Shown piece by piece: positions 2,061-16,675 of a DNA stretch of 22,358 nt; the first letter of the stretch is position 1, and each line of letters begins with the position of its first letter. The notes below the pieces were generated by a model that made no database searches, was not told where the DNA came from, and was given only the letters and a program-made list of their open reading frames with translations. Position numbers and translations under genes: made by a program. This DNA is from a virus, in the IMG/VR virus record IMGVR_UViG_3300031578_005153, positions 1 through 22,358 of that record; one strand, 5' to 3'.

Positions 2061-3758
2061 TCACCTCCCTGGTTTCATGCTCATCTGGTAGAGCTTGTTT
2101 CCACGATAGAAGTGCAGCTGCCCCTTCACGCGAGCCAGCAGCATGTCACCGCCAAGCACTGGGTCTTCAAGGTAGCTCAATTTATTAGAACGCCTGTCCG
2201 CTTTGAACACCTCGAGTTTTTCATCCTCGTTCAGACAAACTGTTACACCAGAATCAAGTACGACAAAGTTGAGCCCAGATGGCGTGATGTCCTCCACCAC
2301 GCGCACATCGTACAGCACGTCCTCGAAGCGGAATACCAGACGGTCGTACTGCCCCTTCTTTTCTCCGATGACCATCAGTACCCCACGGTCGTACCTGGCG
2401 TCGACCACCCGGTACCCCTTGAGCTCATCAGGCAGTATCTGGTGCGTGACACCGCTTTTCGGGAACACCGTCACGACCATGGTGCCCAGCATATCCTGGA
2501 TCACCACCCCCGAGAACATCTGAGTAGCGTTCTCTAGTACAGTAGCCGCCAGCTGTGTCGTCGCTACCACGTCGGCTCCCATGTCCACTAGGACAAGCTC
2601 GTACACGTTGTCACGTACACGCATGTACACACGACCGTCGTACGCCATCATGTCCGAAGGCTCCAGTGGGAACGCAATGCCTTGGCGGTCTGTTAGGTTG
2701 TAGAGTTTTGCTCCACGACTAGTGCGCGTTACTGATACCGCTTTGCTGCGTCGTGGACTGTAGGCTATCGAAGTCACCGCTGTCCCAGCTTCTGGAATCG
2801 GGTGCCCGTTCAGCCACACGAAATTGTCTGTCACCACCGCTGTGTGCTGCCCGAAGTCCCACACGCCGCGTATCACACACTTGTCATCACTGTACGAACT
2901 CACCTCTATGATGTCTAGCAGGTTGGTCCCGATGATCTCCCGCAAGTCGGGTACCAGTACCATCACCATGCCAGATTGCACCGGGGGCGCGACACGCTTC
3001 CCATCCTCGAACACCGCTCGGTACCAATCGCGGTACTCACTTGGAATGACCGATACCGGATACGCAGCCTTAGGTACGCGCACGCTCGAGTTGAACACCG
3101 ACACATTAGCTATCATGCGTGCGTCGAGCCCCTTCAGCTGCTTGTGCTTCCCCTTGAAAGGATGGATGCCACAGAACATTTGGAAGCTCACTACGCTAAA
3201 CGCAAACCAGTCCGTGAGTGTTGTGAACCCTCTTGACCCCTTCATGTGCCGGTCACGAATGCTTTCCATCAACGCTGTCGCTGGGAAGCTCTTTGTTTGG
3301 TAGGAATCTGCATCGATGAAAAATATCTCATCAAACTTCTTGTCCACCAGGAAATTCATTTCGTTGAGGTCGACAAGCAGTATCTTCGACTGGTGAACGT
3401 GATGCACACCCTCCTGTAGCTCGCGTACGAGGTGGGTGATTTGCCCAAGGTCCAGCCCGTTACGCTCCCGGAAAGCTCGAGGGAACAGCTGGCACAGTGC
3501 GTACCCTCCCTTCACGCAGGCCATTGTGTATCCAATGGGAAGCCCCTTCGCGTTGGTGAGCACATCAACTGGTTTCACAATGCGTTTGTCTTTGAGAACA
3601 GACAACTCCTGGATCTTCGCCACCGGGATCATCTTCTTCCGGTCCGCGTAAATCTTGTACGCTGTGCTCCCCCGTGCGTACACAGCACCCTCACCCCCCT
3701 GGCCAAGGTAGTTCCGCTTGTCGAGTTGTACAGCTTGTCCGTTCACATAGACTTGCAT
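2061..3758 (-). CDS. Atypical Ser/Thr protein-kinase-like protein with beta-rich C-terminal domain
   Basis: 565 residues. The N-terminal half (about 1-275) has a kinase layout: glycine-rich loop LGQGGEGAVY at 18-27, a Lys at 35 in AYKIY, and Glu51 as candidate alpha-C glutamate. The catalytic-loop equivalent is LLVDLNEMNFLVD, with Asp130 and Asn135. The metal-binding equivalent is FIDADSYQT with Asp149, and DWFAFSVVSFQMFCGIHPF lies at 183-201. HRD is replaced by LVD and DFG by DAD. I associate the D-x-DS(F/Y)Q pattern with kinases of the TerY-P type. Residues about 280-565 are repeated short beta strands that could form a propeller; no known family was recognised. It should phosphorylate proteins on Ser/Thr, opposed by the adjacent phosphatase. 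Its Shine-Dalgarno lies in the end of the PP2C gene. Activity and targets are untested. Confidence 0.85.
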   Translation of the reverse strand: MQVYVNGQAVQLDKRNYLGQGGEGAVYARGSTAYKIYADRKKMIPVAKIQELSVLKDKRIVKPVDVLTNAKGLPIGYTMACVKGGYALCQLFPRAFRERNGLDLGQITHLVRELQEGVHHVHQSKILLVDLNEMNFLVDKKFDEIFFIDADSYQTKSFPATALMESIRDRHMKGSRGFTTLTDWFAFSVVSFQMFCGIHPFKGKHKQLKGLDARMIANVSVFNSSVRVPKAAYPVSVIPSEYRDWYRAVFEDGKRVAPPVQSGMVMVLVPDLREIIGTNLLDIIEVSSYSDDKCVIRGVWDFGQHTAVVTDNFVWLNGHPIPEAGTAVTSIAYSPRRSKAVSVTRTSRGAKLYNLTDRQGIAFPLEPSDMMAYDGRVYMRVRDNVYELVLVDMGADVVATTQLAATVLENATQMFSGVVIQDMLGTMVVTVFPKSGVTHQILPDELKGYRVVDARYDRGVLMVIGEKKGQYDRLVFRFEDVLYDVRVVEDITPSGLNFVVLDSGVTVCLNEDEKLEVFKADRRSNKLSYLEDPVLGGDMLLARVKGQLHFYRGNKLYQMSMKPGR

Positions 3759-3760
3759 GG

Positions 3761-4672
3761 CTACTCCTCCTCTACGTACTCCTCTGCATACACTGCTGCC
3801 ATTGAGAAGTCGTCATAATGTGACCACCCGTGCTCAGCGCAGTACTTGCTCAGGAAGCGTTTGCACCGTCGTGTGACAAACTCTCCCCTCACACTTTTAA
3901 GTTTCATCAATTGCTGAAGAACCTCTTGCAGTGGAATATTCTCCAGCTGTCCCAACACATTCTTTTTCTGGAAAGAGTGTACACCGTCTGAAAGTACAGC
4001 CACCATGTCGAAGTGGCTTCTATTGAACCGCTCGATATGCCAAAACGTTTCGGGGTCACGTGTTACACGACTGTCCAGACGTCGGTCGTCCATCTCAGGA
4101 TCAGGTACTCCCGCTCCCATTCTGCCATCGTACAGCATGAACTTCATCGTCCGAACGCCACATCCTCCTTCGAGAACGCCTGTGTTTAGCTGTCCTGTGG
4201 TGTACGCCTCGAGTCTTTTCTGGTCCATCTGGTAGCTGAGATATGCAGGAGCATTGTGGTTAAATTCGATTTCCTGTGTGTGAATAGTTCCATCACGGTG
4301 ACGAGCTACGATTACACCATCCCCTGAAGCAGCTACGTTGATAAAGCGTGATGTCGTGTACACGAGTAGCAGAGTGGAATCCAGGCATTCCTGAGGAAGT
4401 ATTCTCCCCATCATGGCGCATGCGTGCGGTAGGACAGCGTGCTCGTTGAATTCATAAGGAGGGGACAGTCGCAACGCTTCCTGCGCACCAAGGCACAAGA
4501 AGCGGGCTCCTATGTCAGTGTGTCTAGAGGAGGAGCACCCGTCAGCTACAGCAGCAAAGAATCGCTCCTGACCTCTGGCATAGGATTCTGCTACTTCCAC
4601 TGTCCCAGCCAGCGCGTAGTCTTCACAGATTTTGTGGCTGCTGCCGATGGCAAAATAAGAGTCGGCGTACAC
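3761..4672 (-). CDS. PP2C-family protein phosphatase
   Basis: 303 residues, close to the usual length of a single PP2C domain. The start is GTG at 4672, supported by AGGAGGT five bases upstream. Metal-binding signatures appear in order: CEDYA (Asp18), AVADGCSSS (Asp44), LDSTL (Asp98), ASGDGV (Asp118), LSDGV (Asp229) and HYDDFS (Asp287, Asp288). These match the Mn/Mg-dependent Ser/Thr phosphatase fold. It probably removes phosphates placed by the kinase encoded two bases downstream. The insert around 166-215, rich in Gly, Asp and Arg, is not typical and may bind a partner. The last codons GAG GAG GAG (Glu-Glu-Glu), just before the stop, also form the kinase ribosome-binding site, so the two genes should be translated together. 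No membrane segment is seen. Confidence 0.9.
   Translation of the reverse strand: MYADSYFAIGSSHKICEDYALAGTVEVAESYARGQERFFAAVADGCSSSRHTDIGARFLCLGAQEALRLSPPYEFNEHAVLPHACAMMGRILPQECLDSTLLLVYTTSRFINVAASGDGVIVARHRDGTIHTQEIEFNHNAPAYLSYQMDQKRLEAYTTGQLNTGVLEGGCGVRTMKFMLYDGRMGAGVPDPEMDDRRLDSRVTRDPETFWHIERFNRSHFDMVAVLSDGVHSFQKKNVLGQLENIPLQEVLQQLMKLKSVRGEFVTRRCKRFLSKYCAEHGWSHYDDFSMAAVYAEEYVEEE
3766..3771 (-). promoter_or_regulatory. Kinase Shine-Dalgarno embedded in the PP2C 3' codons
   Basis: On the minus strand the run is GAGGAGGAGTAGCCATG. AGGAGG lies in the final three Glu codons of the phosphatase, followed by its TAG stop and the kinase ATG at 3758, with seven-base spacing. Terminating ribosomes would sit on the kinase start region, so coupling is likely. 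Confidence 0.7.
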
Positions 4673-4686
4673 GAGTACCTCCTGAG

Positions 4687-4718
4687 CAGGTGGCCCAGGC
4701 CCTCCCCCAGGCCACCTG
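4687..4718 (-). repeat. Nine-base-pair intergenic inverted repeat upstream of PP2C
   Basis: CAGGTGGCC (4687-4695) and GGCCACCTG (4710-4718) are perfect inverted arms around a 14-base loop rich in one strand's G. The repeat fills most of the gap between the vWA stop and the PP2C Shine-Dalgarno. No T-run follows, so it is not a classical factor-independent terminator. A role in mRNA stability, or in setting expression between the vWA protein and the phosphatase, is plausible. Confidence 0.65.
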
Positions 4719-4728
4719 GTGTTGAGAG

Positions 4729-5472
4729 CTAGAAGCTTAATGATTTCGACGCGCCGCCTGTCCCGAGGGCCTGAGATTGTGAAGAAATCGACTTCGAGAT
4801 GAACTGACCCAGCTTCGCCAGGGTCTTATCATTCGCGTCCGCGATCTCCACGTACTGCGTGAACCCAGCCTCGTCGGTGAACGCCTTGAGGTAGTCGCTG
4901 AGGTTCGTCGCGTTCACCCCGATGAGCACAGAGATGATGGACTCCATCGACTCCGCTTTCACCGCTTCCTTCATGGCGTCCTTTACCATGTCACGGGTGA
5001 GCTTGGAGCGGTTGTCCATGCCATCGGTGATCACGAAGACCGCTCCGTTCACGTCGAAGTCCTGCTCGGTCAGGTCGCGCCCGTACTGCACCATCGACTG
5101 CACACCGTTGTAGGTAGCATCGTACAGAGCCGTGAGACCCTTGGTTTGGATGCAGCCGTCGTAGTCGTCCTCGTTGCACTCCGACAGCGGCTTGAACCCG
5201 TGGAACTCGTCCACCGTGGAGTTGAAGGTGATCACCCGCAGCATGAGGTTGTCCGCTCGAGGGCTGCGTCGACAAGCCTTGGCGACTTCCTTGACCACCT
5301 TCTCCATCTCGTCCACGAAGCCATTGATGGAAGGGCTGCAGTCGATCACCAGGAGTGCAAGCGTATACTCAGACGCTCCTAGCTCACCAATGCGTTTGGC
5401 AGAAAAACTGAAATTGGAAGCTCCCATCTGATGGGTTTCCATTGTGGGGTCGTCGGTTCCTAGACGTGGCAT
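4729..5472 (-). CDS. vWA-domain protein, TerY-like
   Basis: 247 residues; ATG at 5472 follows AGGAGGT at a good distance. The von Willebrand A fold is evident from the metal-ion-dependent adhesion site: LLVIDCSPS (Asp44, Ser46, Ser48), the threonine in KGLTALYDAT (Thr114) and VFVITDGMDN (Asp150). The first 35 residues and the C-terminal Ser-rich tail (SSQSQALGTGGASKSLSF) lie outside the core, and the tail is a candidate for phosphorylation. vWA domains usually bind partner proteins through a divalent metal. Together with the phosphatase and kinase genes downstream, this matches the TerY-P triad described in comparative genomics of tellurite-resistance-associated stress systems. No signal peptide is present, so it should be cytoplasmic. 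The triad assignment is inference from domains and order. Confidence 0.88.
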   Translation of the reverse strand: MPRLGTDDPTMETHQMGASNFSFSAKRIGELGASEYTLALLVIDCSPSINGFVDEMEKVVKEVAKACRRSPRADNLMLRVITFNSTVDEFHGFKPLSECNEDDYDGCIQTKGLTALYDATYNGVQSMVQYGRDLTEQDFDVNGAVFVITDGMDNRSKLTRDMVKDAMKEAVKAESMESIISVLIGVNATNLSDYLKAFTDEAGFTQYVEIADANDKTLAKLGQFISKSISSQSQALGTGGASKSLSF

Positions 5473-5519: not shown

Positions 5520-6326
5520 CTATTTCAAGAAGTCGACCGTGGTGGTGAGCTTCATGCCCTTCCCGGTCAACTCCTTGACGAAGTCCTCGCCCAGGTTGTC
5601 GAACCCAGGTACGTTCGAGGAGGCGTCCGTCAGCAGGTGCACCTTCTCGATGTACTTCGGGTCGCTGAACGCATCCGCCGTGTCCCGCATGGTGTTGGCC
5701 ACACAGTGTGACAGCGCCTGGCCCGCCAGCAGAATGATGTCCGCGTCCTCGAGCGTCTGCACGAACTTCGCGTTCAACTGCGTGGTGGGGTCCTCCGGGT
5801 CCGGTACTTCAGCCTTCACCGCACTGAAGTGCTCGGTAAAAACATTCGATCCCTTCGTCACGAAGTCCACCGTGGCGAAGCTGTCCTCCCACTTCTGGAG
5901 TGCCTCGAACAGCGCAGGGTACACGTTGTGCCCCCAGCTGCCGATGAGACAGTGCGGTGGCCAGATGCAGTGAGGGTAGCGTCCGTTGGCCTCGAGTTGC
6001 TGCAGGTACTCCAGCGACCGCCCCTGAAGGCTGGGCATTTTCGCGTTCCACTTGCCTGCTTGGACGTCGGCTGCGGTGATGATGGTGAAGGGGTCGGGAC
6101 GGGCACCCGAGGAATCCTTCCACCAGATGGGGTGGGCGATGTCGACCTTGCGGTGGCTGTCGAGGGTGACGTGAATGTCATCGAGTTTCGGATGAATCCG
6201 CTGGACCATGGTTGCTAGGCGCTCCATGTCCTTCTCAGCCCCAGGAACGTACAGCGAGCCGTTGGGGTCGCAGAAATCGTTTTGGGGATCGATACAAACT
6301 AAATGAATGGATACAGGCTTGCTCAT
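5520..6326 (-). CDS. pncA: Nicotinamidase-like cysteine hydrolase (isochorismatase superfamily)
   Basis: 268 residues, longer than typical bacterial PncA (about 190-215). ATG at 6326 follows AAAGGA. The expected catalytic triad is visible: Asp13 in VCIDPQNDFC, Lys158 in VTKGSN and Cys208 in ALSHCVANTMRD. Candidate metal ligands are Asp56, His58 and His65 in TLDSHRKVDIAHP, and WPPHC at 122-126 is also typical. GSLYVPGA near residue 23 fits the family. Nicotinamidase converts nicotinamide to nicotinate for NAD+ salvage. Extra segments around 66-120 and 160-190 may change substrate choice, so another amidase of the superfamily cannot be excluded. The gene sits between the nucleotide-metabolism block and the phosphorylation triad, with hairpins on both sides. 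The symbol is given by family resemblance. Confidence 0.82.
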   Translation of the reverse strand: MSKPVSIHLVCIDPQNDFCDPNGSLYVPGAEKDMERLATMVQRIHPKLDDIHVTLDSHRKVDIAHPIWWKDSSGARPDPFTIITAADVQAGKWNAKMPSLQGRSLEYLQQLEANGRYPHCIWPPHCLIGSWGHNVYPALFEALQKWEDSFATVDFVTKGSNVFTEHFSAVKAEVPDPEDPTTQLNAKFVQTLEDADIILLAGQALSHCVANTMRDTADAFSDPKYIEKVHLLTDASSNVPGFDNLGEDFVKELTGKGMKLTTTVDFLK

Positions 6327-7141: not shown

Positions 7142-8003
7142 TTACAGTCTCCTTAGTAGCTTGCGGATTCAGCCACAAACATTCCGTGCGACCCTGTGTC
7201 ACTTTAATCACACCGTCCCCCTGCAACTGTGTGTGCTTCGTTCGAGCAGCTGCGTTACAGGAACGGTCAAAGGATACTCGAGTCCACCCGTGCTGCTCGA
7301 GCTCCTTGTACAGATCGTTAGGGTAGCCAGATAAAACGACGGCTCCTTGCAGTTGCTTGGCCTCCTTCACCATTTCTTCTTGCTCTTCAGTGGTCATCTC
7401 AAAGTAGTACCAACCGTCCCGGCGTGTCTCTTTGGGGTAGGGAGGGTCCAGGTAGAACAGCGTGTCGGGACTGTCGTACTCCGCGAAGATCTCCTTGTAG
7501 TCAACGTTGTAAATTTTGACACGCTTCATTCGTTCTGCGATGCGAGGCAACATCTTGATGGCACCGATGTACGCGTTGATGGGCTGCGCCATCCCATGCA
7601 CACTGGTATTCGTCACGAGTCCCCACGAGGTCCTGTCAATCATTCCACCCAAGGACTGCCTGCAGTCCACAAAAAACATCCGTGCTCGAGCTACGTCGTC
7701 CTCGGCATCCTGCCAGTGGTTCTTGCTGTGCAGCCGTTCCTCTCGACTGTAAGGCGTCAGCATCAGCTGCTCAATCAATCGTGCTCGATCTTCGTCGCTG
7801 ACAATCACCTGAAAAAGCGTGGTCACGCGAGGGTCTAGGTCGTTGAATACCTCTACCTCACTGCGCTCCTTCGCCAGCAGGACGCTGCCCCCTCCTCCAA
7901 ACGGCTCCACGTAAATACGGCGCTCGGGGAGGTAGGGAAGTATCTTCCCTCGGAGAACACCCTTGCCTCCAATAATCTTGATGGGGGACCTGAGGACTGC
8001 CAT
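7125..8003 (-). CDS. dam: D12-class DNA N6-adenine methyltransferase (Dam-like)
   Basis: 292 residues. It starts at ATG 8003 in a TAATG overlap with the GyrA-like stop. The N-terminal SPIKIIGGKGVLRGKILPYL is the usual opening of D12 enzymes. The AdoMet-binding motif is YVEPFGGGGSV at 31-41, a second AdoMet contact is probably FNDLD at 53-57, and the catalytic motif is DPPY at 186-189 in FYLDPPYP. A target-recognition region is expected between about 65 and 170. The enzyme would transfer a methyl group to adenine N6 in duplex DNA. The recognised site cannot be read from sequence; GATC is common in the family but not assured. There is no cognate endonuclease beside it, so it is probably an orphan used for protection or timing. 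The symbol is by family resemblance. Confidence 0.88.
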   Translation of the reverse strand: MAVLRSPIKIIGGKGVLRGKILPYLPERRIYVEPFGGGGSVLLAKERSEVEVFNDLDPRVTTLFQVIVSDEDRARLIEQLMLTPYSREERLHSKNHWQDAEDDVARARMFFVDCRQSLGGMIDRTSWGLVTNTSVHGMAQPINAYIGAIKMLPRIAERMKRVKIYNVDYKEIFAEYDSPDTLFYLDPPYPKETRRDGWYYFEMTTEEQEEMVKEAKQLQGAVVLSGYPNDLYKELEQHGWTRVSFDRSCNAAARTKHTQLQGDGVIKVTQGRTECLWLNPQATKETVNDATE

Positions 8004-10162
8004 TACTTGTCTTCCGCTAGCGGAATGATTGCTGTCACTGGTGCTCCTGTCTGTAGCTGTTCAAGCGTTTCCTCGTCCGACGCAAGGTAACGTTTGCCTG
8101 CTTCTGTTACCACCAGATTTTGTTCACCCACTGCGTGTAGTGGATGGTCTGCCTGCGAAGCGTCCGCATAACCTAGTTCTACACCTGTGTTGTCTACCAG
8201 CATGGTGCCTGCTGGGATAACAATGGCTGACGTTACGGTGACCTTCCTTCTACCTGGAAGGGTCTTGGACTGCACGTTGGGACGCGTGATCTTCAGATCG
8301 CTGCACGTGTACGTCATCTGCGTATCATCATCACACATCACAAACAGTTTGCCACCTTCATCTAGCCCTCCAGCGAAAACCAACTCATCGTCGCCAAGCT
8401 GCTTAAACACAGGGAACTGCGTGCGCCGTTGGTCGGGGGGGAACGCTACGTACTTCCCGCTCTTTGACAGTGCTACCACACAGGCGTGCTCCTCCGACGC
8501 TACCCCGATCACCTTCCCCACACTCTTGTCAAATTTCTCGATGAACGAAATGGGAATCGACTGACCGATGTTGTCCTCCGACACCGTAACAAATTTGCCG
8601 GGGGTCCGCACAAGGTCCACGTACGTCCACGTTGCTCGACTCTTCAGCGGGAGCTCCGTGTAGCTATCCACTTTGGCATCCTCGGTTACGCCTACGTAGT
8701 ATGTGGCCTCTGCTACGGTCAGGTCCAGGTCGTCCTTGCCTCCGCGTAGCCGGGTACCTCGCTTGTCCGCGTACTCAAGCATCTCACGCAGCCTACGCGC
8801 TACCACGCGGTCCAGGTTCGTCAGGTCGTCCTCGATCTCATCGATGCGTGCGCTGTACTCCTCAATACGCTTCTCCAGCTTCTTCTTGTTGATCGCCATC
8901 AAGGAACGGACAGACGAGTCAGCAATTACTTTCGCTTGTACGTCCCCTACAAAGCCAAACTCTGTGCTTAGCTGCTCGATCAACTCTTCTTCCGACTTCG
9001 CCTCCATCATTATTTTGATTACGAGTGGAAGTGCTGTGATGGCAATGAGGCGTGCTGCTTCCGCACCTCTCTTGCGTTCCAGTACGACACGCTCATCTTC
9101 CAGTACCAGCTGCTCTACCTTGCGTCGGAAGCGCAGGAAAATCTCTAGCAACTCCTTCAAGCTGTACAGGATGGGGCGTTTCTTATTGTTCAGCGCGTAG
9201 AATTGGTACGTGAGCGATGAGCGTAGCAGCGGGAGCACCCGGTCGTTGATGATCTTCGGGTCCGTGAACTCCACCACCACCCTGGTTCCAATTTTCCTCG
9301 AGCCCTCGTCGTTTGCCGCCGACTCAAGTAGCTTCGCTTCCTTGAGTTCGTCAGTAATACGCACGAGCTTCTTGGCGTCGAAGCCGGGGTTGAAACCGGT
9401 GATCACCAGCTTCTGCTTACCCTTTGCTCCCTCCTCGAAGTGGTAGTTACACGAGAACACCAACCGACCGCGCCCAGTACTGTACACCTTGCGCAAGTCA
9501 TCTTTTTTCGACAGCAGCACACCGCTCCCGTAGTCCGGTCCCTTGACATGCTTGAGCAGGTCGTCCGTTGTACAGTCTGGATTCTCTAGCACCTCTAACG
9601 CTGCGTTGATTATCTCACCCAGATTATGCGGTGGGATATTGGTTGCCACTGCCAACGCTACTCCCACACAACCGTTTACCAGCAACAGCGGTACTCGAGC
9701 AGGTAGGAGAAATGGTTCGTCATGCTCTTCCGTGAATGACTTAACGAGTGGCATGATGTCGACGTCGTCAAACATCCGGTCCGCAAACTTTGACAGCCGT
9801 GTCTCCGTGTATCGGTACGCAGCTGGTGGAGCTTCAAGTAACGACTCCCGAATGCCAAAGTTGCCGTGCTTCTGTATTAGTGGGTGCCGCATCCAACCCA
9901 TGTTAACCAGCGCACCGTAGCAAGCTGAGTCCCCGTGTGGATGGTAGCGCCCTAGCGTGTGCCCCACCACTGTTACACACTTGACCGGGATGCCGTTGCT
10001 GTGACGCTTCAACTCGTGTAAAGACCACAACGTCCTGCGCTGCACAGGTTTGAGTCCGTCACGTGCGTCGGCAATCGCACGGTCTTCAATGGTGTACTCA
10101 CCGTACTCGAGCAGGTTCTCTCGTACGATCGCCGCTGTCTGTTTCTTTTCGGTTTTTACCAT
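8003..10162 (-). CDS. gyrA: DNA gyrase/topoisomerase IV subunit A homologue
   Basis: 719 residues from ATG 10162, chosen because it forms TAATG with the upstream stop and begins MVKTEKK like family members; an ATG eight codons earlier is less likely. Breakage-reunion signatures: ADARDGLKPVQRRTLW at 31-46, GRYHPHGDSACYGALV at 71-86 and APPAAYRYTETRLS at 111-124, with the strand-cleaving Tyr at 118 preceded by Arg117. A coiled-coil gate (about 360-470) and a C-terminal beta-propeller-like domain (about 500-719) follow. It is nearer ParC than E. coli GyrA in length, and no clear GyrA box is seen, so true supercoiling activity is uncertain. The residue matching E. coli Asp87 is Gly83. It should pair with the GyrB-like protein encoded two genes upstream. 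Confidence 0.93.
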   Translation of the reverse strand: MVKTEKKQTAAIVRENLLEYGEYTIEDRAIADARDGLKPVQRRTLWSLHELKRHSNGIPVKCVTVVGHTLGRYHPHGDSACYGALVNMGWMRHPLIQKHGNFGIRESLLEAPPAAYRYTETRLSKFADRMFDDVDIMPLVKSFTEEHDEPFLLPARVPLLLVNGCVGVALAVATNIPPHNLGEIINAALEVLENPDCTTDDLLKHVKGPDYGSGVLLSKKDDLRKVYSTGRGRLVFSCNYHFEEGAKGKQKLVITGFNPGFDAKKLVRITDELKEAKLLESAANDEGSRKIGTRVVVEFTDPKIINDRVLPLLRSSLTYQFYALNNKKRPILYSLKELLEIFLRFRRKVEQLVLEDERVVLERKRGAEAARLIAITALPLVIKIMMEAKSEEELIEQLSTEFGFVGDVQAKVIADSSVRSLMAINKKKLEKRIEEYSARIDEIEDDLTNLDRVVARRLREMLEYADKRGTRLRGGKDDLDLTVAEATYYVGVTEDAKVDSYTELPLKSRATWTYVDLVRTPGKFVTVSEDNIGQSIPISFIEKFDKSVGKVIGVASEEHACVVALSKSGKYVAFPPDQRRTQFPVFKQLGDDELVFAGGLDEGGKLFVMCDDDTQMTYTCSDLKITRPNVQSKTLPGRRKVTVTSAIVIPAGTMLVDNTGVELGYADASQADHPLHAVGEQNLVVTEAGKRYLASDEETLEQLQTGAPVTAIIPLAEDK

Positions 10163-11241
10163 TATCGTACACCCAGGTAACCGCACACAATGTTTATCCC
10201 TAGCTCTTCTATCTTGTTACGCCGGGGGCTATTCTGTAGATCAGTTTTTTGATACTGCAGTTCCAGTTCCTTGCTGAGAGTTTCTTCATACTCCATCAGC
10301 TTCTCGTAGCTCCACTCTCCACGTTTGATAGGCATCAATATAGTAGCGGCGTCTGCACGTGCCACATGCATCGTCTTCTCTTGCAGTATCTCGCCGCACA
10401 TAAGCAGAAGTCGAACAAGGTGCAACGCGTGTTTCGAATCGTAGCCGTGCTTCTCTTCTGCCTCACGACGTCGTGGATTGCGTTCCTTCTTCCAGTGCAA
10501 CCACGACTTGTACTCTTTACGCGCTTTTTGGTACTGCTTCTCTTGTTTCAGCAACTCAAGAAAGTTGTCCTTGAACCCCAGCGCTTTTCCAGCAGACACC
10601 CAACTCTTGTCCGAAATCTCCTGCAGCGTCAGCGACAACGTATGCTCAAGGAAGTTGTTGAGCAGGTGGCGCACTCCCATCGCTGCATCCTTGGGGATGT
10701 CCGACAGTTCTTCTTCGATGGGATACTTGTTGAGGTGGCGACGGATCAACTCCTGCGCCGCGTTGATTGTGTCTACAGGCAGTTCACTCCGGTCACGTAG
10801 TCCAAAGTCCCCCCGCTTAGGTTCTTGGAGCTCCCCTTTCATCAACCACTCTCTGTGATTACGCATACGCCTAAGCTGCGAGTGTGCGTAACCTTTGTGC
10901 GTGTGGTAACACTTCTTCGAGAGAAACAAATCTCTATGCTCTACTAAGCGTTCCCACTCTCCAGTATGAGTCATCCAGAATTGTTCAGGTGTCCATAGAA
11001 GCTCGAGGATGTTCGGATTGTTTTGCGCCGCCAGGTGTAGGAATTTTGAGAAGCCATAGATGACCAGGTCTTCTTCTGACGGTGCGTACTGCTCAAATTT
11101 ACTTGCGTACCCAAACCAGTATTTAAAAGGAGGGATGCACACCCCACGGTAATCGTAGTCTGACTCCTCATCGTAAGTCCCGTACACACGAGAACCAGCA
11201 AGCGTCTTGAAGATGGTGCACTGCTCTACGTCAAAGTTCAT
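10162..11241 (-). CDS. Predicted nucleotidyltransferase (DNA polymerase beta superfamily, RlaP/YcgL-like)
   Basis: 359 residues. I chose ATG 11241 because it overlaps the upstream stop as ATGA and has GTGGAGAG upstream; ATG 11259 lacks a ribosome-binding site. The N-terminus shows the family signature LAGSRVYGTYDEESDYDYRG followed by VCIPP (about residues 14-38). That is a Gly-Ser nucleotide-binding turn followed by a metal-binding Asp-x-Asp. A helical region with PNILELLW near 75 follows, and the C-terminal 240 residues are mostly helix rich in Lys, Arg and Glu. Homologues are often annotated as predicted nucleotidyltransferases in phages and bacteria, some beside RNA ligases, but their substrate is not established. 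It lies between the two gyrase subunit genes. DNA, RNA or protein could be the acceptor. Confidence 0.8.
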   Translation of the reverse strand: MNFDVEQCTIFKTLAGSRVYGTYDEESDYDYRGVCIPPFKYWFGYASKFEQYAPSEEDLVIYGFSKFLHLAAQNNPNILELLWTPEQFWMTHTGEWERLVEHRDLFLSKKCYHTHKGYAHSQLRRMRNHREWLMKGELQEPKRGDFGLRDRSELPVDTINAAQELIRRHLNKYPIEEELSDIPKDAAMGVRHLLNNFLEHTLSLTLQEISDKSWVSAGKALGFKDNFLELLKQEKQYQKARKEYKSWLHWKKERNPRRREAEEKHGYDSKHALHLVRLLLMCGEILQEKTMHVARADAATILMPIKRGEWSYEKLMEYEETLSKELELQYQKTDLQNSPRRNKIEELGINIVCGYLGVR

Positions 11242-11804
11242 TTCGCTCTCCACAACCATTGAAAGGGTGGCAGCGGGTGTAGGTCTCTGGCTTTCACTGT
11301 GAACGCCCCACTGAACACTCCACTGGTGCTAGGGGTCTTCGGTAGCATCGCGTCGGTTGCCCACCCTATCAGGTTCGCCAGCACTGGTTTCGGTTTCTTC
11401 ATCTGTGTGACCAGGATGAGTACGTATATCCATTCTGGATGGCGCTCTCGAGGACGTACTGCCAAACGGTAATCCAGTAGGTCTCTGTTTGGATTGCGCG
11501 CCATGCTTGCTTTGAAATCAAGGTTGGCACCGATTATATCGCTGCCGCCGTCACCCACGGTGGGGTTCTGGTTGGCTACCCATCGAGATTTCATGTAGGG
11601 ATCTGCGCTTCCAAACAACCACATGCTTCCAACGTACTGCCCTACCTGTCCTACCAGCTGGTCCTCACGTAACGTGGTCTGCCTGTCTGCTCCGCGAATG
11701 TTTGACCTGCCTCCGATAGAGGCCAGCTTCGCGTGCTGGGCCACGATGTTCATCTCGCGTCCTGCTATCTGTACCCGGATAATATCTTCCGCTGTAATGG
11801 TCAT
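11238..11804 (-). CDS. Unrecognised protein, possible PD-(D/E)XK nuclease fold, 188 aa
   Basis: 188 residues from ATG 11804, which overlaps the GyrB stop as ATGA and itself overlaps the next start as ATGA, so all three are translationally linked. The family is not recognised with certainty. The stretch DGGSDIIGANLDFKAS (about 85-100) gives Asp89, then Asp96-Phe-Lys98, which resembles the core of PD-(D/E)XK nucleases. Glu47 in the helix LREDQLVGQVGQYVGS could be the extra acidic residue, and a following hydrophobic strand WIYVLILVT fits the fold. If correct, it would cleave or bind DNA near the replication proteins. The C-terminus (FSGAFTVKARDLHPLPPFQW) is typical of nothing I know. An open frame continues upstream to 11897 but has no good start there. 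Confidence 0.7.
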   Translation of the reverse strand: MTITAEDIIRVQIAGREMNIVAQHAKLASIGGRSNIRGADRQTTLREDQLVGQVGQYVGSMWLFGSADPYMKSRWVANQNPTVGDGGSDIIGANLDFKASMARNPNRDLLDYRLAVRPRERHPEWIYVLILVTQMKKPKPVLANLIGWATDAMLPKTPSTSGVFSGAFTVKARDLHPLPPFQWLWRAK

Positions 11805-13675
11805 GACGCGTCGACCACGCCCATGATTTTCTTTCTGTGTACGGGGTCTTTTCCCATGTACGCAAGTACCAACGCCTGGTCCTTCTTGCCGCCCCATTGC
11901 ACCTGCAGCACGTTGCGGCTTTTGGGATCCATCGCGTAAATCTCCAGGTCCGCTGCCTCCGACTCTCCCAACCCCTTGAACCGTGTGATGCGAGTTTTCG
12001 CGTTCCCTTTTATCTGCGCACGCACCTCTTCTATCGTATCCCCGTACACACGCTGCGACGCCGTAACGCCCATGAACAAAGGACTCAGTACAATGAACAG
12101 CTTGCCGTCCTCAATAAGCTGCGCCATGTGGGCAGCGAAGAATGTTAGCAAGAGGGCTTGGATGTGCTTACCGTCTGAATCAGCGTCCATCAACAAGTAG
12201 ATACTCTTGTAGCGACATTTGTCGAGGTTGAACGCCGGTCCGATACCTGTGCCAATGGCTTGCGTGATACTGGTGAGCTCCGCGTTCAAAAGGATTTTGT
12301 CGATGTCTACCTCGGCAGCGTTCTTCACCTTCCCACGCAACGGTAGAATTTCCTGGAAGTGTACGTTCCCTTTCAGGGTCACTCGAGCGTCCCGCGCACT
12401 GCCAAAGGCCGACGTCCCCTCAACGATGAACAACTCGCGCTCGTCAGGTGAACAGTCCGACGCTTCACACAGTTTGCCAGGTAAGATACTCTTGGCACCC
12501 TGCTTTACCTTGGTCTCGCGGATTGCCTTCTGCTGCTCACGCAACTTCTTCTTCGCGTCCCGTAGTAGAACCGCGTGCTCCAGTAGCTGCTTGGTTACGT
12601 CCGGGTTAGCTGCTACAAACTTCCGCAGGGCGCTCTCCACGATAGCCTGGATCTTTTCCTCCACATCCTGGTTTTGTAGGCTCCTCTTAGTCTGTCCCCG
12701 AAATTCAGGCTCGAGTACGTGCGCGTGGATAACCCCTACGATGCCTTCACGTAGATAGTCGCCCTTCAGCTTGCCGTACTTGCCGTTGGTAGCCTGGTCC
12801 TGCAGTACCTTCTGGATTGCTTTCTTTGCCCCAGTCACATGCTTCCCGTGCTCTGGTGTGCTCGTGACGTTTACGAAGGATGCCCACCGTTCGTTGGACC
12901 CGTCCGTCCAAGCAAATGCGATGTCCACGAGGTCTTCTTGGATGACAATAGGTTCATGTAGGTGTACAGCGTCCCCATGTTCCTGCATAAAGGTTGGCAG
13001 CATATCTACCAATCCACCCTCAGCCACAAACCGTTCTGGGGGCTCGTCGTCTACTTTGAACTCGACTACCAAACCAGGGCACAGGTAGGAGATCGCCCGC
13101 AACCGTTGCCCGATGCGCTCGACATTAAATTGGGTGCCCTTGAATATTGCAGAGTCGGGTAGAAAGCGAATGCAGGTGCCTGCATTCATGTTGCGCTTTA
13201 CCACGCGCACCTTTGAAGCGGGTTCCCCTCGCTCGAATGTTTGGTGGTATACCTTCTCCCGCTGCACTGTCCACACGGAAAGCTTTTCCGACAAGGCGTT
13301 CGTTGCTTTTATTCCAATGCCGTGAAGCCCTGCTACTGCACTCGTGTACGCACCGTGCCCGAATTTGCCACCCGAGTGCAGCTTGGTGAGTACAGCAGTG
13401 AGAAGAGGAAGCCCGGTTTTCTTGTGCTTAGTGACTGGAATGCCACGCCCGTTGTCGAGCACCATCGCAATTTGGTGCTCGGTGTCAATTTTTACAGCGA
13501 TGGCAGTTACGTGGCCATCCATATACTCGTCTACTGCATTGGCTACTACCTCTTCAAGAATGTGGTGTAAACCATCAGGGCCAGTGTCCCCTATGTACAT
13601 TGCTGGCCGTAGACGTATGGGTTCCAGATTTTCGAGGATACGGATGTGATCCCCGTCGTAGTGCTTCTTTTTCAA
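11801..13675 (-). CDS. gyrB: DNA gyrase/topoisomerase IV subunit B homologue (TTG start)
   Basis: 624 residues, ParE-sized; the roughly 170-residue insert of E. coli GyrB is absent. The GHKL ATPase region shows HHILEEVVANAVDE (Glu42, Asn46), VLDNGRGIP (72-80), GGKFG (102-106) and AGLHGIGIKATNALS (115-129). QTK (Lys330) in the transducer domain contacts ATP. TOPRIM residues are Glu419 in LFIVEGTSA and Asp497/Asp499 in MDADSDGKHI, with PLRGKVKNA between. The usual EGDSA is EGTSA here. The C-terminal FKGLGESEAADLEIYAMDP is conserved. The start must be TTG at 13675: AGGA lies seven bases upstream, no ATG exists between it and the in-frame stop, and the first internal ATG lies within conserved sequence. 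It follows the polymerase gene by nine bases. Confidence 0.93.
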   Translation of the reverse strand: MKKKHYDGDHIRILENLEPIRLRPAMYIGDTGPDGLHHILEEVVANAVDEYMDGHVTAIAVKIDTEHQIAMVLDNGRGIPVTKHKKTGLPLLTAVLTKLHSGGKFGHGAYTSAVAGLHGIGIKATNALSEKLSVWTVQREKVYHQTFERGEPASKVRVVKRNMNAGTCIRFLPDSAIFKGTQFNVERIGQRLRAISYLCPGLVVEFKVDDEPPERFVAEGGLVDMLPTFMQEHGDAVHLHEPIVIQEDLVDIAFAWTDGSNERWASFVNVTSTPEHGKHVTGAKKAIQKVLQDQATNGKYGKLKGDYLREGIVGVIHAHVLEPEFRGQTKRSLQNQDVEEKIQAIVESALRKFVAANPDVTKQLLEHAVLLRDAKKKLREQQKAIRETKVKQGAKSILPGKLCEASDCSPDERELFIVEGTSAFGSARDARVTLKGNVHFQEILPLRGKVKNAAEVDIDKILLNAELTSITQAIGTGIGPAFNLDKCRYKSIYLLMDADSDGKHIQALLLTFFAAHMAQLIEDGKLFIVLSPLFMGVTASQRVYGDTIEEVRAQIKGNAKTRITRFKGLGESEAADLEIYAMDPKSRNVLQVQWGGKKDQALVLAYMGKDPVHRKKIMGVVDAS

Positions 13676-13682
13676 TTGCCAA

Positions 13683-13686
13683 TCCT
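13683..13686 (-). promoter_or_regulatory. Ribosome-binding site deciding the GyrB TTG start
   Basis: The minus strand reads TAGGATTGGCAATTG. AGGA overlaps the polymerase TAG stop and lies seven bases from TTG at 13675. This supports a non-ATG start and coupling to polymerase translation. The rare start codon may lower subunit B output. Confidence 0.6.
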
Positions 13687-16675
13687 ACGCCCTAGCCTGA
13701 ACATTCTGTTTTCGTTGCCACCAGTCCCAGTAGCTCAGAACCTTGGGAAGCGGTCCCGATTTAAGCTGTACTTCTACTTCTTTGCAACCGCACTCTTCAC
13801 AACGTTTATTTTTAGGGTACGCCGTTTCCTTCCGCTCTTTTTTACACTCGGGGCAATTTACGCTGTATTTCTCCTGTATGTCAACATTTATTTGGTCCGC
13901 CCAGTTAGGCCCGATTGAAAAATCGACCACAAAAGGAATTGACATCGTCAATCCAAACGGCTTCATGAGGTGTGGATCCACCATGATTCTATCGGAGACC
14001 TTCATGTAGTCTTCCACGTCATCACGCGGTATTTCAGCAATGATGGAGTCGTGTACAATATTGAGTAGTCGCCACGGTCGTTGGTGTTCCTCAATGTATC
14101 TTTGGATGGCGATGCACGCCATTAAATTGGTGTCGCTGGCGATAGCCTGGATAGGAGCGTTACGGCAGACGCGATCCTCATAGCCCTTGTACTTGCCAAT
14201 GTCTGTGATCACGCGCTTCCCGTTGACGTCGAAGAACTGGTTGTCGTCTGTGGACACGAAACCAGATACCAGGTGGCGACGCCTTCCAATCGCAGACTCG
14301 ACATACCCCTTATCGAATCCGTGCTTCTCGATCCAGTAGAGCCACTTACGCGCCTTCGGAAACTGGTTCAGGAATTTCTCCTGGTAGTTCTCTGCTTCCT
14401 TGAAGGAAATTTTCAGCGCTTCAGCGATGCCGAATACAGACATACCGTAGATGATGCCGAAGACTATGGCTTTTGACGCACTTCTTTCGTCGTCGGTGAT
14501 CTCGTGCGCAGGCTTGTCAAAAATCTGCGACGCGGTCTGCCGGTGGAAGTCGCCTTCCTGTAGCATCCGTATTCGATTTTCCTCCGTAGGATTTTCCAGG
14601 TAGGCTTTCTGAACCTGGGCGACAGCTTCAAAGGCTTTCTTCAGCAGCGGGTCGCCGGTTACCTGTGCAAGCCACCGCACCTCCGCTTGGCTGTAGTCAA
14701 CGCAGACCATGAGGTGCCGCGCCTCGACGGTGTAGACACGCTTCACTGCTAGCGCGTTAACCGTCTTACCCTTCGGGATGTTCTGCATGTTAGGGTCGCT
14801 TGAGCTCGTTCTTCCTGTAGTTGTCTTGTGGAAGTTGAACGCTGCACGAATGCGACCGTCCCGCATCTCTGGGCTCGTCTGAAGCATCTTGTAGGGTGAC
14901 TCGATGTACGTTCCGCGTAGCTTGTCAAGCGCTGCCCATTCCGATGCCAGGTCGACCTCTGCTACACCCTTGTTCTCTTTGTAGAATGTTTTGTCGATTT
15001 TAGGCTGATTACTCTTTGGTGTAACCTGTGTGGGAAGATGTAGCACGTCCACGAATAATGCTTTCTGTGAAGCAGTCTTGTTGATGTGAAACAGCCAGGG
15101 ATCCTTCGCCTGATTTCCCCATATCCCCGCCATCCCACGGGTCCTCTTTACCTGCTGCAGCAATAGTTTGTTGGCCTCCTTTACTGTGTCCCTACTCGCA
15201 AAATCCTCCTCGATTTTCGCTATGCGCCCAACAATAGGGGAATCCTTCGCCATCAGATAGCGCAGCTGCTCCTTGTCAGCGCGGATGCCATTGTGCTCCA
15301 TCCTCGCCGCAAACATAGACACCGGGCCGTGCATGTTAAGACCTAGCTGCTTGAGGGTGGAGCGGTACTTCTGCTGGTGAGCTATCCTGTCTTGCATGTC
15401 ATGAAGCCGCCACGTGACATAGCAGTCCATCCCGTTGTACTCACAGACCTGCTCGATCGGCCCCTCCTCCAACGTGTGCCCCTTCATCTTGATCAGCTTT
15501 CGCATAGGTACAATGTCTTCGTCGTAGTACCCCTTGAACCCCAACCACTCATCACTCAACGTCTTCAGGCCAAACGGTGACTGTACCACCCCTTTCCTGT
15601 TTTCGTTGAGGGCGTGCGCACGTAGCATCGTGTCCTCGAGTGGTAGGTTCCACAAGGACACACCAAACTCGTCCAATGTTAACGCGCATTCAAACTTGAG
15701 GTTGTGTGCTACCAAGGCGCGAAAGGGTGCGTTGCGCGTCGTGAAAAACTTCCGCAGTAGCGCCCGTACTTCACGAAGCTCCTTGCCTGTCCATGGACTT
15801 TCTGGATGCTTGTACGGGATCACGAAAGCCTTGTCCGGGCCGTACGCAAAGCCCACCGTGATTATTTTGTTGTCGATCCTGTCTAGCCCGGCTGCCTCGT
15901 AGTCGAACGCTACTATTTGCTCCTTGGTAAGCTTTGTTGCCATGTACTTGAGTAGCTTGAACACACGCTCCACGGTGTTCACCATGACTACCTTATCACC
16001 ACGTTTACTGTAGTCAGGTACAATCCCACGAGCGCGGTAGAAAGCTCGAGCGATGTCCTCCTCAAAAACCCCTCCCATCTTTGGTGTACGACTGACGAAA
16101 GCAAAGTGGAAGGTGACTATGGCTGGGTAACTTTCGCCGTCTGGAGTTTTGACCACCACCTCTTTTCCACGTAGCTGGAAGACCTTGGAGTTGGGGTCGA
16201 TAGGCTCCCCTGTGGACTTGTTGCTCGCTAGCCCTACCGCTGAGGAACCACCCAGCAAAACGATGTAGGCGGGCTTGATCTTCATGATATCGTGCAAGAT
16301 GTTGCGACGGCAATGCACCACCTCTTTCGTAGTGGGCGCCCGGTCCTTCCTCGGGTCGTCGTCTTGTACCGGACGGCACCGTACGATGTTGCCGTAGGCT
16401 ACTCCGCGCTCCGTACCTCCATTGAGCTTGTCTACCAGCTGCCGTAGAATCTTGCCCGTCCCGCCAATTACTGGACGCCCCACCTCGTTCTCCACGCGGC
16501 CCGGTGCCTCCGCGATGAACATCACGTCCACGCCCATCCCCTTCTTATTCTGTCCTCCTCGATGTACTTCGGTGGGTACCTGTTTGCGAACAAACCGGTT
16601 GCCTAGGAGTGGGCACCCGTTGCTGGCTTCACAGGTTTCTTCTGCGAGGGGTGAAAGGATGAAGTTTTCGTCCAT
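13685..16675 (-). CDS. DNA polymerase: UDG-like domain, 3'-5' exonuclease, family A polymerase, zinc ribbon
   Basis: 996 residues. Residues 1-225 resemble family 4 uracil-DNA glycosylases: MFIAEAPGRVENEVGRPVIG (52-71), VRCRP and FHFAF. Cys15, Cys21, Cys100 and Cys122 could hold an Fe-S cluster. Residues 250-430 are a proofreading exonuclease: FDYEAAGL (Asp258, Glu260), AHNLKFE (323-329) and YNGMD (Tyr413, Asp417). Residues 580-930 are the polymerase: motif A VDYSQAEVR (Asp660), motif B RSASKAIVFGIIYG (Lys735, Phe739, Tyr743) and motif C IVHDSIIAE (Asp876). Cys941, Cys944, Cys959 and Cys962 form a C-terminal zinc ribbon. This order recalls the SPO1 polymerase, whose N-terminus also carries a UDG-related domain. 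It is probably the phage replicative polymerase. The start overlaps the preceding gene by 47 bases but is required by the conserved cysteines. Confidence 0.93.
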   Translation of the reverse strand: MDENFILSPLAEETCEASNGCPLLGNRFVRKQVPTEVHRGGQNKKGMGVDVMFIAEAPGRVENEVGRPVIGGTGKILRQLVDKLNGGTERGVAYGNIVRCRPVQDDDPRKDRAPTTKEVVHCRRNILHDIMKIKPAYIVLLGGSSAVGLASNKSTGEPIDPNSKVFQLRGKEVVVKTPDGESYPAIVTFHFAFVSRTPKMGGVFEEDIARAFYRARGIVPDYSKRGDKVVMVNTVERVFKLLKYMATKLTKEQIVAFDYEAAGLDRIDNKIITVGFAYGPDKAFVIPYKHPESPWTGKELREVRALLRKFFTTRNAPFRALVAHNLKFECALTLDEFGVSLWNLPLEDTMLRAHALNENRKGVVQSPFGLKTLSDEWLGFKGYYDEDIVPMRKLIKMKGHTLEEGPIEQVCEYNGMDCYVTWRLHDMQDRIAHQQKYRSTLKQLGLNMHGPVSMFAARMEHNGIRADKEQLRYLMAKDSPIVGRIAKIEEDFASRDTVKEANKLLLQQVKRTRGMAGIWGNQAKDPWLFHINKTASQKALFVDVLHLPTQVTPKSNQPKIDKTFYKENKGVAEVDLASEWAALDKLRGTYIESPYKMLQTSPEMRDGRIRAAFNFHKTTTGRTSSSDPNMQNIPKGKTVNALAVKRVYTVEARHLMVCVDYSQAEVRWLAQVTGDPLLKKAFEAVAQVQKAYLENPTEENRIRMLQEGDFHRQTASQIFDKPAHEITDDERSASKAIVFGIIYGMSVFGIAEALKISFKEAENYQEKFLNQFPKARKWLYWIEKHGFDKGYVESAIGRRRHLVSGFVSTDDNQFFDVNGKRVITDIGKYKGYEDRVCRNAPIQAIASDTNLMACIAIQRYIEEHQRPWRLLNIVHDSIIAEIPRDDVEDYMKVSDRIMVDPHLMKPFGLTMSIPFVVDFSIGPNWADQINVDIQEKYSVNCPECKKERKETAYPKNKRCEECGCKEVEVQLKSGPLPKVLSYWDWWQRKQNVQARA

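Follow-up and report, generated by a model that had tools for sequence, protein, structure and literature searches.

What does a set of three signaling genes, encoding a von Willebrand factor A (vWA) protein, a PP2C phosphatase and a protein kinase, do in the genome of a bacteriophage? The question is raised by a virus record of 22,358 bases (IMG/VR record IMGVR_UViG_3300031578_005153, positions 1 to 22,358; hereafter the window), whose gene content is typical of a very large phage, and in which an earlier note had described the three genes as a stand-alone, TerY-P-like triad. Our computational analysis identifies four genes instead of three, with intact active sites, conserved linkage, a clustering with NAD+ genes in other phages, and a counterpart on bacterial chromosomes. 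We consider it reasonably probable that this four-gene module of huge phages couples a phosphorylation switch of the YegL-PphC-YegI/TerY-P type to NAD+ salvage.

The three reported open reading frames (ORFs) lie consecutively on the minus strand, from 5472 to 2061, and encode a TerY/YegL-like vWA protein of 247 residues (4729 to 5472), a PP2C phosphatase of 303 residues (3761 to 4672), whose GTG start is backed by its relatives, and a YegI/TerY-P-type kinase of 565 residues (2061 to 3758). The kinase and the phosphatase score above the curated Pfam cut-offs (Pkinase, E 1.6e-8; PP2C_2, E 4.8e-13), and 45 of 50 kinase relatives also match Pkinase. The vWA protein falls below the cut-off for VWA_2 (E 0.05); its AlphaFold2 model, with a predicted local distance difference test (pLDDT) score of 92.9, has vWA/integrin I domains as its PDB matches (E about 1e-8). 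Residue conservation in the triad was measured across 98-99 phage relatives and is far above chance. The kinase residues K35, D130, N135 and D149 are kept in 98-100% of them, and all metal-binding aspartates of the phosphatase (D18, D44, D118, D229, D287 and D288) in 99-100%. The vWA protein has a complete metal ion-dependent adhesion site (MIDAS), in which D44, S48, T114 and D150 are kept in 98-100% and S46 in 90%. It ends in a serine-rich C-terminal tail where S226, S228, S230 and S233 are conserved at 97-100%; this stretch is likely to be a phosphorylation site. ORFs, Pfam matches, model and conservation thus bear out the earlier description of consecutive genes whose catalytic and metal-site residues are intact. 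The translational linkage claimed for all three is plausible only for the phosphatase-kinase pair, because these genes are separated by 2 nt and the vWA and phosphatase genes by 56 nt.

The model of the kinase (pLDDT 90.4) has two parts. The kinase domain (residues 1-260; 2979 to 3758, minus strand) contains a GQGGEG P-loop, K35, the catalytic residues D130 and N135, and the metal-binding D149 within FIDADSYQ. It is followed by an all-beta domain (residues 281-561; 2076 to 2918, minus strand) with about 28 strands in the secondary structure of the model and without a zinc ribbon. The top PDB match in Foldseek is LRRK2, which combines a kinase with a WD40 domain, and the matches in BFVD include viral WD40 or propeller-like proteins. 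The C-terminal domain is consistent with a seven-bladed propeller, where the number of blades is what we infer from the model.

Immediately upstream of the vWA gene, at a distance of 47 nt and on the same strand, the gene at 5520 to 6326 encodes a cysteine hydrolase of 268 residues (NIC), which is a predicted nicotinamidase and, judged by its sequence and position, a member of the triad's unit. Searched alone, the window protein stays below the cut-off of Pfam Isochorismatase (23.7 bits against 27). A profile of 53 NIC relatives has the yeast nicotinamidase Pnc1 as its top PDB match (E 5e-22), with other nicotinamidases also matching. Placing the residues on PncA numbering, which we take to hold across the family, the catalytic D13, K158 and C208 are present in 99%, 100% and 100% of 101 phage sequences, and the metal-binding residues D56, H58, H65 and H125, among them the histidine of a WPxHC motif, in 94-100%. 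An isochorismatase-fold gene precedes the vWA gene in each of the first relatives (LR745208, LR756511, LR756500 and MT837596), and NIC has this position in most loci. The nearest relative, L002, had appeared to carry neither the nicotinamidase nor the vWA gene; in fact both were hidden behind a long ORF on the opposite strand, and the hidden Markov model survey found them. The earlier placement of the triad beside genes of nucleotide metabolism holds for the three genes but is incomplete, since a fourth member stands on that side.

Three scans of IMG/VR with kinase, nicotinamidase and vWA alignments, combined with earlier matches, gave 190 loci in 103 distinct groups. The kinase scan used a narrow alignment, as the diverse one was too variable, and distant cellular relatives are therefore undersampled. 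By profile searches all four genes are present in 95 of the 103 groups, in the order NIC-vWA-PP2C-kinase in more than 80 and PP2C-kinase-NIC-vWA in five. The association holds whichever gene is taken as the center: NIC accompanies the kinase in 56/58 kinase-centered loci, the kinase accompanies NIC in 56/62 NIC-centered loci, and 30/32 vWA-centered loci have the full set. In all 94 loci that are complete within one record the genes point in the same direction, and the median NIC-vWA gap is about 40 bp. The gene order persists in lineages whose kinase, phosphatase and vWA proteins are only 17-30% identical to those of the window, and the module is found on contigs of up to 619 kb. Related phages thus carry a linked set; scattered, unlinked homologues, or the absence of a kinase or phosphatase fold, had been named as grounds for rejecting the triad, and it withstood both checks. 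The statement that it stands alone has to be abandoned, as the nicotinamidase is a near-constant fourth gene and genes of NAD+ biosynthesis cluster with the triad.

Several further features were seen at or near these loci. Apparent gene fusions in L017 and L148 are overlapping open frames, as judged by eye from the coordinates. Second vWA paralogues occur near some modules (L034:10211-10960, L131:15118-15876 and L116:1714-2370) and are reminiscent of Type III-A CoCoNuT systems, for which duplicated genes of TerY-like vWA proteins are reported. One gut phage contig encodes a DUF2828/DUF7788 protein with a vWA domain of its own directly 5' of the nicotinamidase (L007:2849-4300); the Pfam assignment ruled out our initial reading of this 483-residue ORF as NAMPT. 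Repeated neighbors of the module are genes for calcineurin-like phosphoesterases, at 15 loci, and Thg1-like genes, at 9; examples lie at L135:1527-2108 and L020:1878-2702. Hypothetical proteins weakly similar to the window vWA protein are also found in 29 Microbacterium phage records, such as NC_073370.1:39142-39672.

When the ORFs around the module were clustered, none besides its own four genes exceeded 25 of the 103 groups, and the commonest neighbors were NAD+ genes: NAPRT, a Nudix-winged-helix regulator resembling NrtR, NadE, a NadD-like adenylyltransferase, and NADAR. Profile searches placed NrtR near the module in 33 groups, NAPRT in 32, NadE in 26 and NadD in 21, with at least one of the four near 53 groups; NADAR lies near 13 phage loci. 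In L147 the genes are ordered NIC-vWA-NAPRT-NadE-PP2C-NadD-kinase with short overlaps, and NCBIfam models identify NAPRT and NadE above their cut-offs, while the similarity to NadD and NrtR is clear. The order in L087 is NAPRT-NadE-NIC-vWA-PP2C-kinase-NrtR-NadD. These varied positions suggest repeated association, not a single frozen block. NIC, NAPRT, NadD and NadE all lie within or beside the module in four large records (L087, L042, L175 and L179), and likewise in smaller contigs such as L147. When 29 large module-bearing records were searched in full, NadE was found in 25, the NAPRT family in 21 (19 above the cut-off) and NadD in 21 (only 7 above the cut-off). In 12 of the 25 records with NadE, this gene is no more than 10 kb from the kinase, where random placement would give 1.4 (0 of 100,000 trials); for the NAPRT family the count is 7 of 20, where 1.1 would be expected (7 of 100,000). 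A separate case is the 735-kb phage LR756501.1 (the record of L202), which has no triad and carries NadE, NAPRT and a short gene resembling nicotinamidases in an 8-kb stretch at about 423-431 kb; by its gene content this group appears to be deamidating NAD+ salvage without a switch.

A cellular version of the module exists on bacterial chromosomes. Among 199 genomes from the phylum of G036, a metagenome-assembled genome of the Acidobacteria, 22 encode the long nicotinamidase and five a related kinase. G036 is one of these five and holds a module of the phage type, and the other four have the arrangement PP2C-kinase-NIC-vWA, in one genome split over two contigs. In three chromosomal kinases a CxxC-CxxC ribbon immediately follows the kinase domain; the corresponding operons are L248-L250 (G084:C51, G093:C116 and G105:C207). 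Two chromosomal operons continue with NADAR, a Band 7 protein, a 313-residue protein without a Pfam match, and NrtR. The contigs that carry the operons reach 627 kb and their neighboring genes look bacterial. Catalytic residues are kept in these relatives, except for H65 of NIC, which is serine or phenylalanine in three. Other bacterial long nicotinamidases adjoin NadE or NAPRT, which ties the enzyme independently to NAD+ synthesis. The bacterial nicotinamidases, sampled from one phylum, group as a single clade in a midpoint-rooted tree.

Consideration of known kinase-phosphatase-vWA systems gives insight into the kind of switch that is involved. The YegL-PphC(YegK)-YegI locus of E. coli K-12 has a counterpart for each of the three genes, with the same fold and at the same place in the order. 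Alignment by hhalign matches the vWA protein to YegL (95%, E 2e-8), including the serine-rich tail, the phosphatase to PphC/YegK (94.5%, E 8e-8), and the kinase to YegI (99%, E 7e-18), including the GGEG and ID-DS-(F/Y)Q motifs; at the sequence level, the phage triad is homologous to YegL-PphC-YegI. The E. coli locus differs in having no nicotinamidase, and YegI is reported to be membrane-bound, with the alignment to the phage kinase ending at residue 282 of its 648. YegI is reported to autophosphorylate on serine and to be dephosphorylated by PphC (PMC13232886); earlier work on the three proteins is reported to have found no condition under which they are expressed.

The TerY-P triad (Anantharaman 2012; described as a defense system by Gao 2020) likewise encodes a TerY-like vWA protein, a PP2C phosphatase and a Ser/Thr kinase together. 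The likeness of our vWA protein to TerY is judged from its fold, its MIDAS and its homology to YegL. In TerY-P a zinc ribbon or an OB-fold follows the kinase domain, where the window kinase has a propeller-like tail, and a constant nicotinamidase partner sets the phage triad apart. The window kinase contains no CxxC..CxxC motif, which occurs in one of 99 phage kinases (L068). We therefore do not file the window triad as TerY-P, its kinase having neither zinc ribbon nor OB-fold; L068 and the three chromosomal kinases, which keep the zinc-ribbon motif, bridge the two types, and the window triad probably works like TerY-P. The TerY-P likeness claimed earlier hence holds in kind, for composition and for homology to YegL-PphC-YegI, and fails in the strict sense of the kinase tail. 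The reported lack of accompanying Ter genes agrees with the absence of TerD from all 29 large module-bearing records, a search that did not extend to TerC, TerB or TelA.

This likeness raises the first alternative, that the module is a phage-borne defense of the TerY-P kind against competing phages, with the nicotinamidase as a metabolic effector or accessory that, for example, manipulates NAD+ in a superinfected cell. Triads with these three folds have been reported to act against phages as systems of their own (PMC11090510, PMC7699616), and superinfection-exclusion factors have been argued for in jumbo phages (PMC7824862). However, PADLOC models, which represent known defense systems, gave no TerY-P or triad match for kinase, phosphatase or vWA protein and only weak kinase matches (mad6, PD-T4-6), the kinase tail is of a different type, and the frequent neighbors that we identified are NAD+ synthesis enzymes, not nucleases or other effectors. 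We regard this explanation as unlikely.

We propose that the module instead acts in the cell that the phage itself has infected. The nicotinamidase would convert nicotinamide, which host NADase immunity and ADP-ribosylation release, to nicotinate, from which NAPRT, NadD and NadE, of phage or host origin, would rebuild NAD+. The kinase would phosphorylate its partners and the PP2C protein would remove the phosphate; the vWA protein may be a metal-dependent scaffold or a substrate, and the propeller-like tail of the kinase may sense a ligand or dock a target. The triad could thereby tune salvage, or host NAD enzymes, up or down with the state of infection. The benefit may lie in resistance to NADase immunity or in meeting the NAD+ demand of a large genome; it is probably counter-defense against NAD+-depleting immunity. 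A Sir2 NADase defense aimed at jumbo phages has been reported (PMC12931631).

A number of our observations weigh against this proposal. Huge phages without the module, used as controls, also encode NadE (4/8) and the NAPRT family (6/8), so that carrying NAD genes is a general trait of huge phages and weak evidence; we dropped it as proof of a link, and clustering alone is strong. The subfamily of NIC itself was not found in these controls, which gave two weak matches to shorter proteins. The proximity figures above overstate the significance of the clustering, because related genomes are not independent. The nicotinamidase is the sole NAD-related gene in the window, which is a fragment. In its nearest large relative, the 350-kb record G001 (kinase identity 84%), NAPRT and NadE adjoin each other about 180 kb from the module, and a search of the whole record, which found NIC, NAPRT and NadE, found no NadD. 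The action of the switch on NAD+ enzymes is something we infer from computation.

In a second alternative, the shared operon reflects co-expression only: the nicotinamidase would boost NAD+, and the substrates of the triad would be host proteins unrelated to NAD+, for instance factors of transcription or translation. Kinases directed at the host are known from phages, and no substrate evidence ties the triad to NAD enzymes. Against this, the four-gene unit stays fixed even where identity is down to 20-30% and the rest of the flanking gene content turns over, and the association recurs with NADAR and NrtR on bacterial chromosomes, where host takeover is not an issue; we therefore give co-expression a similarly small chance. 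A role in ADP-ribose or nicotinamide signaling in place of NAD+ supply, with NIC clearing nicotinamide, which inhibits ADP-ribosyltransferases and sirtuins as their reaction product, and the triad answering ADP-ribosylation stress, would suit the NADAR genes at phage loci and in two chromosomal operons and the recurrence of NrtR, a reported ADP-ribose sensor (PMC9503650), but appears less likely still, as NAPRT, NadE and NadD are at least as frequent and point to synthesis.

Coupling of the switch to NAD+ salvage would also set the module apart from described phage routes. In earlier surveys, phage NAD+ synthesis is represented by NadV, NadM and NadR, and NARP1 (Adps and Namat) is described as a counter-defense route. 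Such pathways resemble the module in rebuilding NAD+ from nicotinamide with phage-encoded enzymes; they use nicotinamide directly, whereas the route of the module deamidates it first (nicotinamidase, NAPRT, NadD and NadE) and has a kinase-phosphatase-vWA unit attached. The available portions of two comparative surveys of phage NAD+ synthesis contain no mention of nicotinamidase, TerY or PP2C. No Adps or Namat genes were noticed in the window, and whole records were not searched for them. Bacterial NrtR/NADAR operons centered on ADP-ribosylglycohydrolase (PMC9503650) are similar in bringing a Nudix-type NrtR, phosphatases, NADAR and a vWA chaperone into one neighborhood; they differ in their central enzyme, and neither a kinase nor a nicotinamidase is described in them. 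A literature search, which left out subscription papers and most preprints, found no link between a nicotinamidase and a kinase in phages and no mention of the module.

Elsewhere in the window, an RlaP/phage nucleotidyltransferase gene (PF10127, PHROG 388) lies at 10162-11259. The ORFs on its two sides (8003-10186 and 11801-13675) have the look of gyrase/topoisomerase subunits by eye, and the 996-residue ORF at 13685-16675 seems, also by eye, to fuse a uracil-DNA-glycosylase-type domain to a family A DNA polymerase.

Depletion of NAD+ is a main weapon of bacterial immunity. The chances appear to us evenly balanced that the module represents a widespread system, so far undescribed, whose kinase-phosphatase-vWA switch has direct control of NAD+ salvage, and that this system, present on bacterial chromosomes, was acquired by huge phages as a regulated response to immunity that depletes NAD+. 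If this is true, it would be the first phospho-regulated viral NAD+ pathway and would provide a biochemical context for the orphan YegL-PphC-YegI/TerY-P switch; deamidating NAD+ salvage coupled to Ser/Thr phosphorylation would form a new layer of counter-defense. Our findings suggest NAD+ homeostasis as a testable role for the YegL-PphC-YegI and TerY-P triads, and the chromosomal operons that include NrtR and NADAR allow the question to be tested without an uncultured phage.

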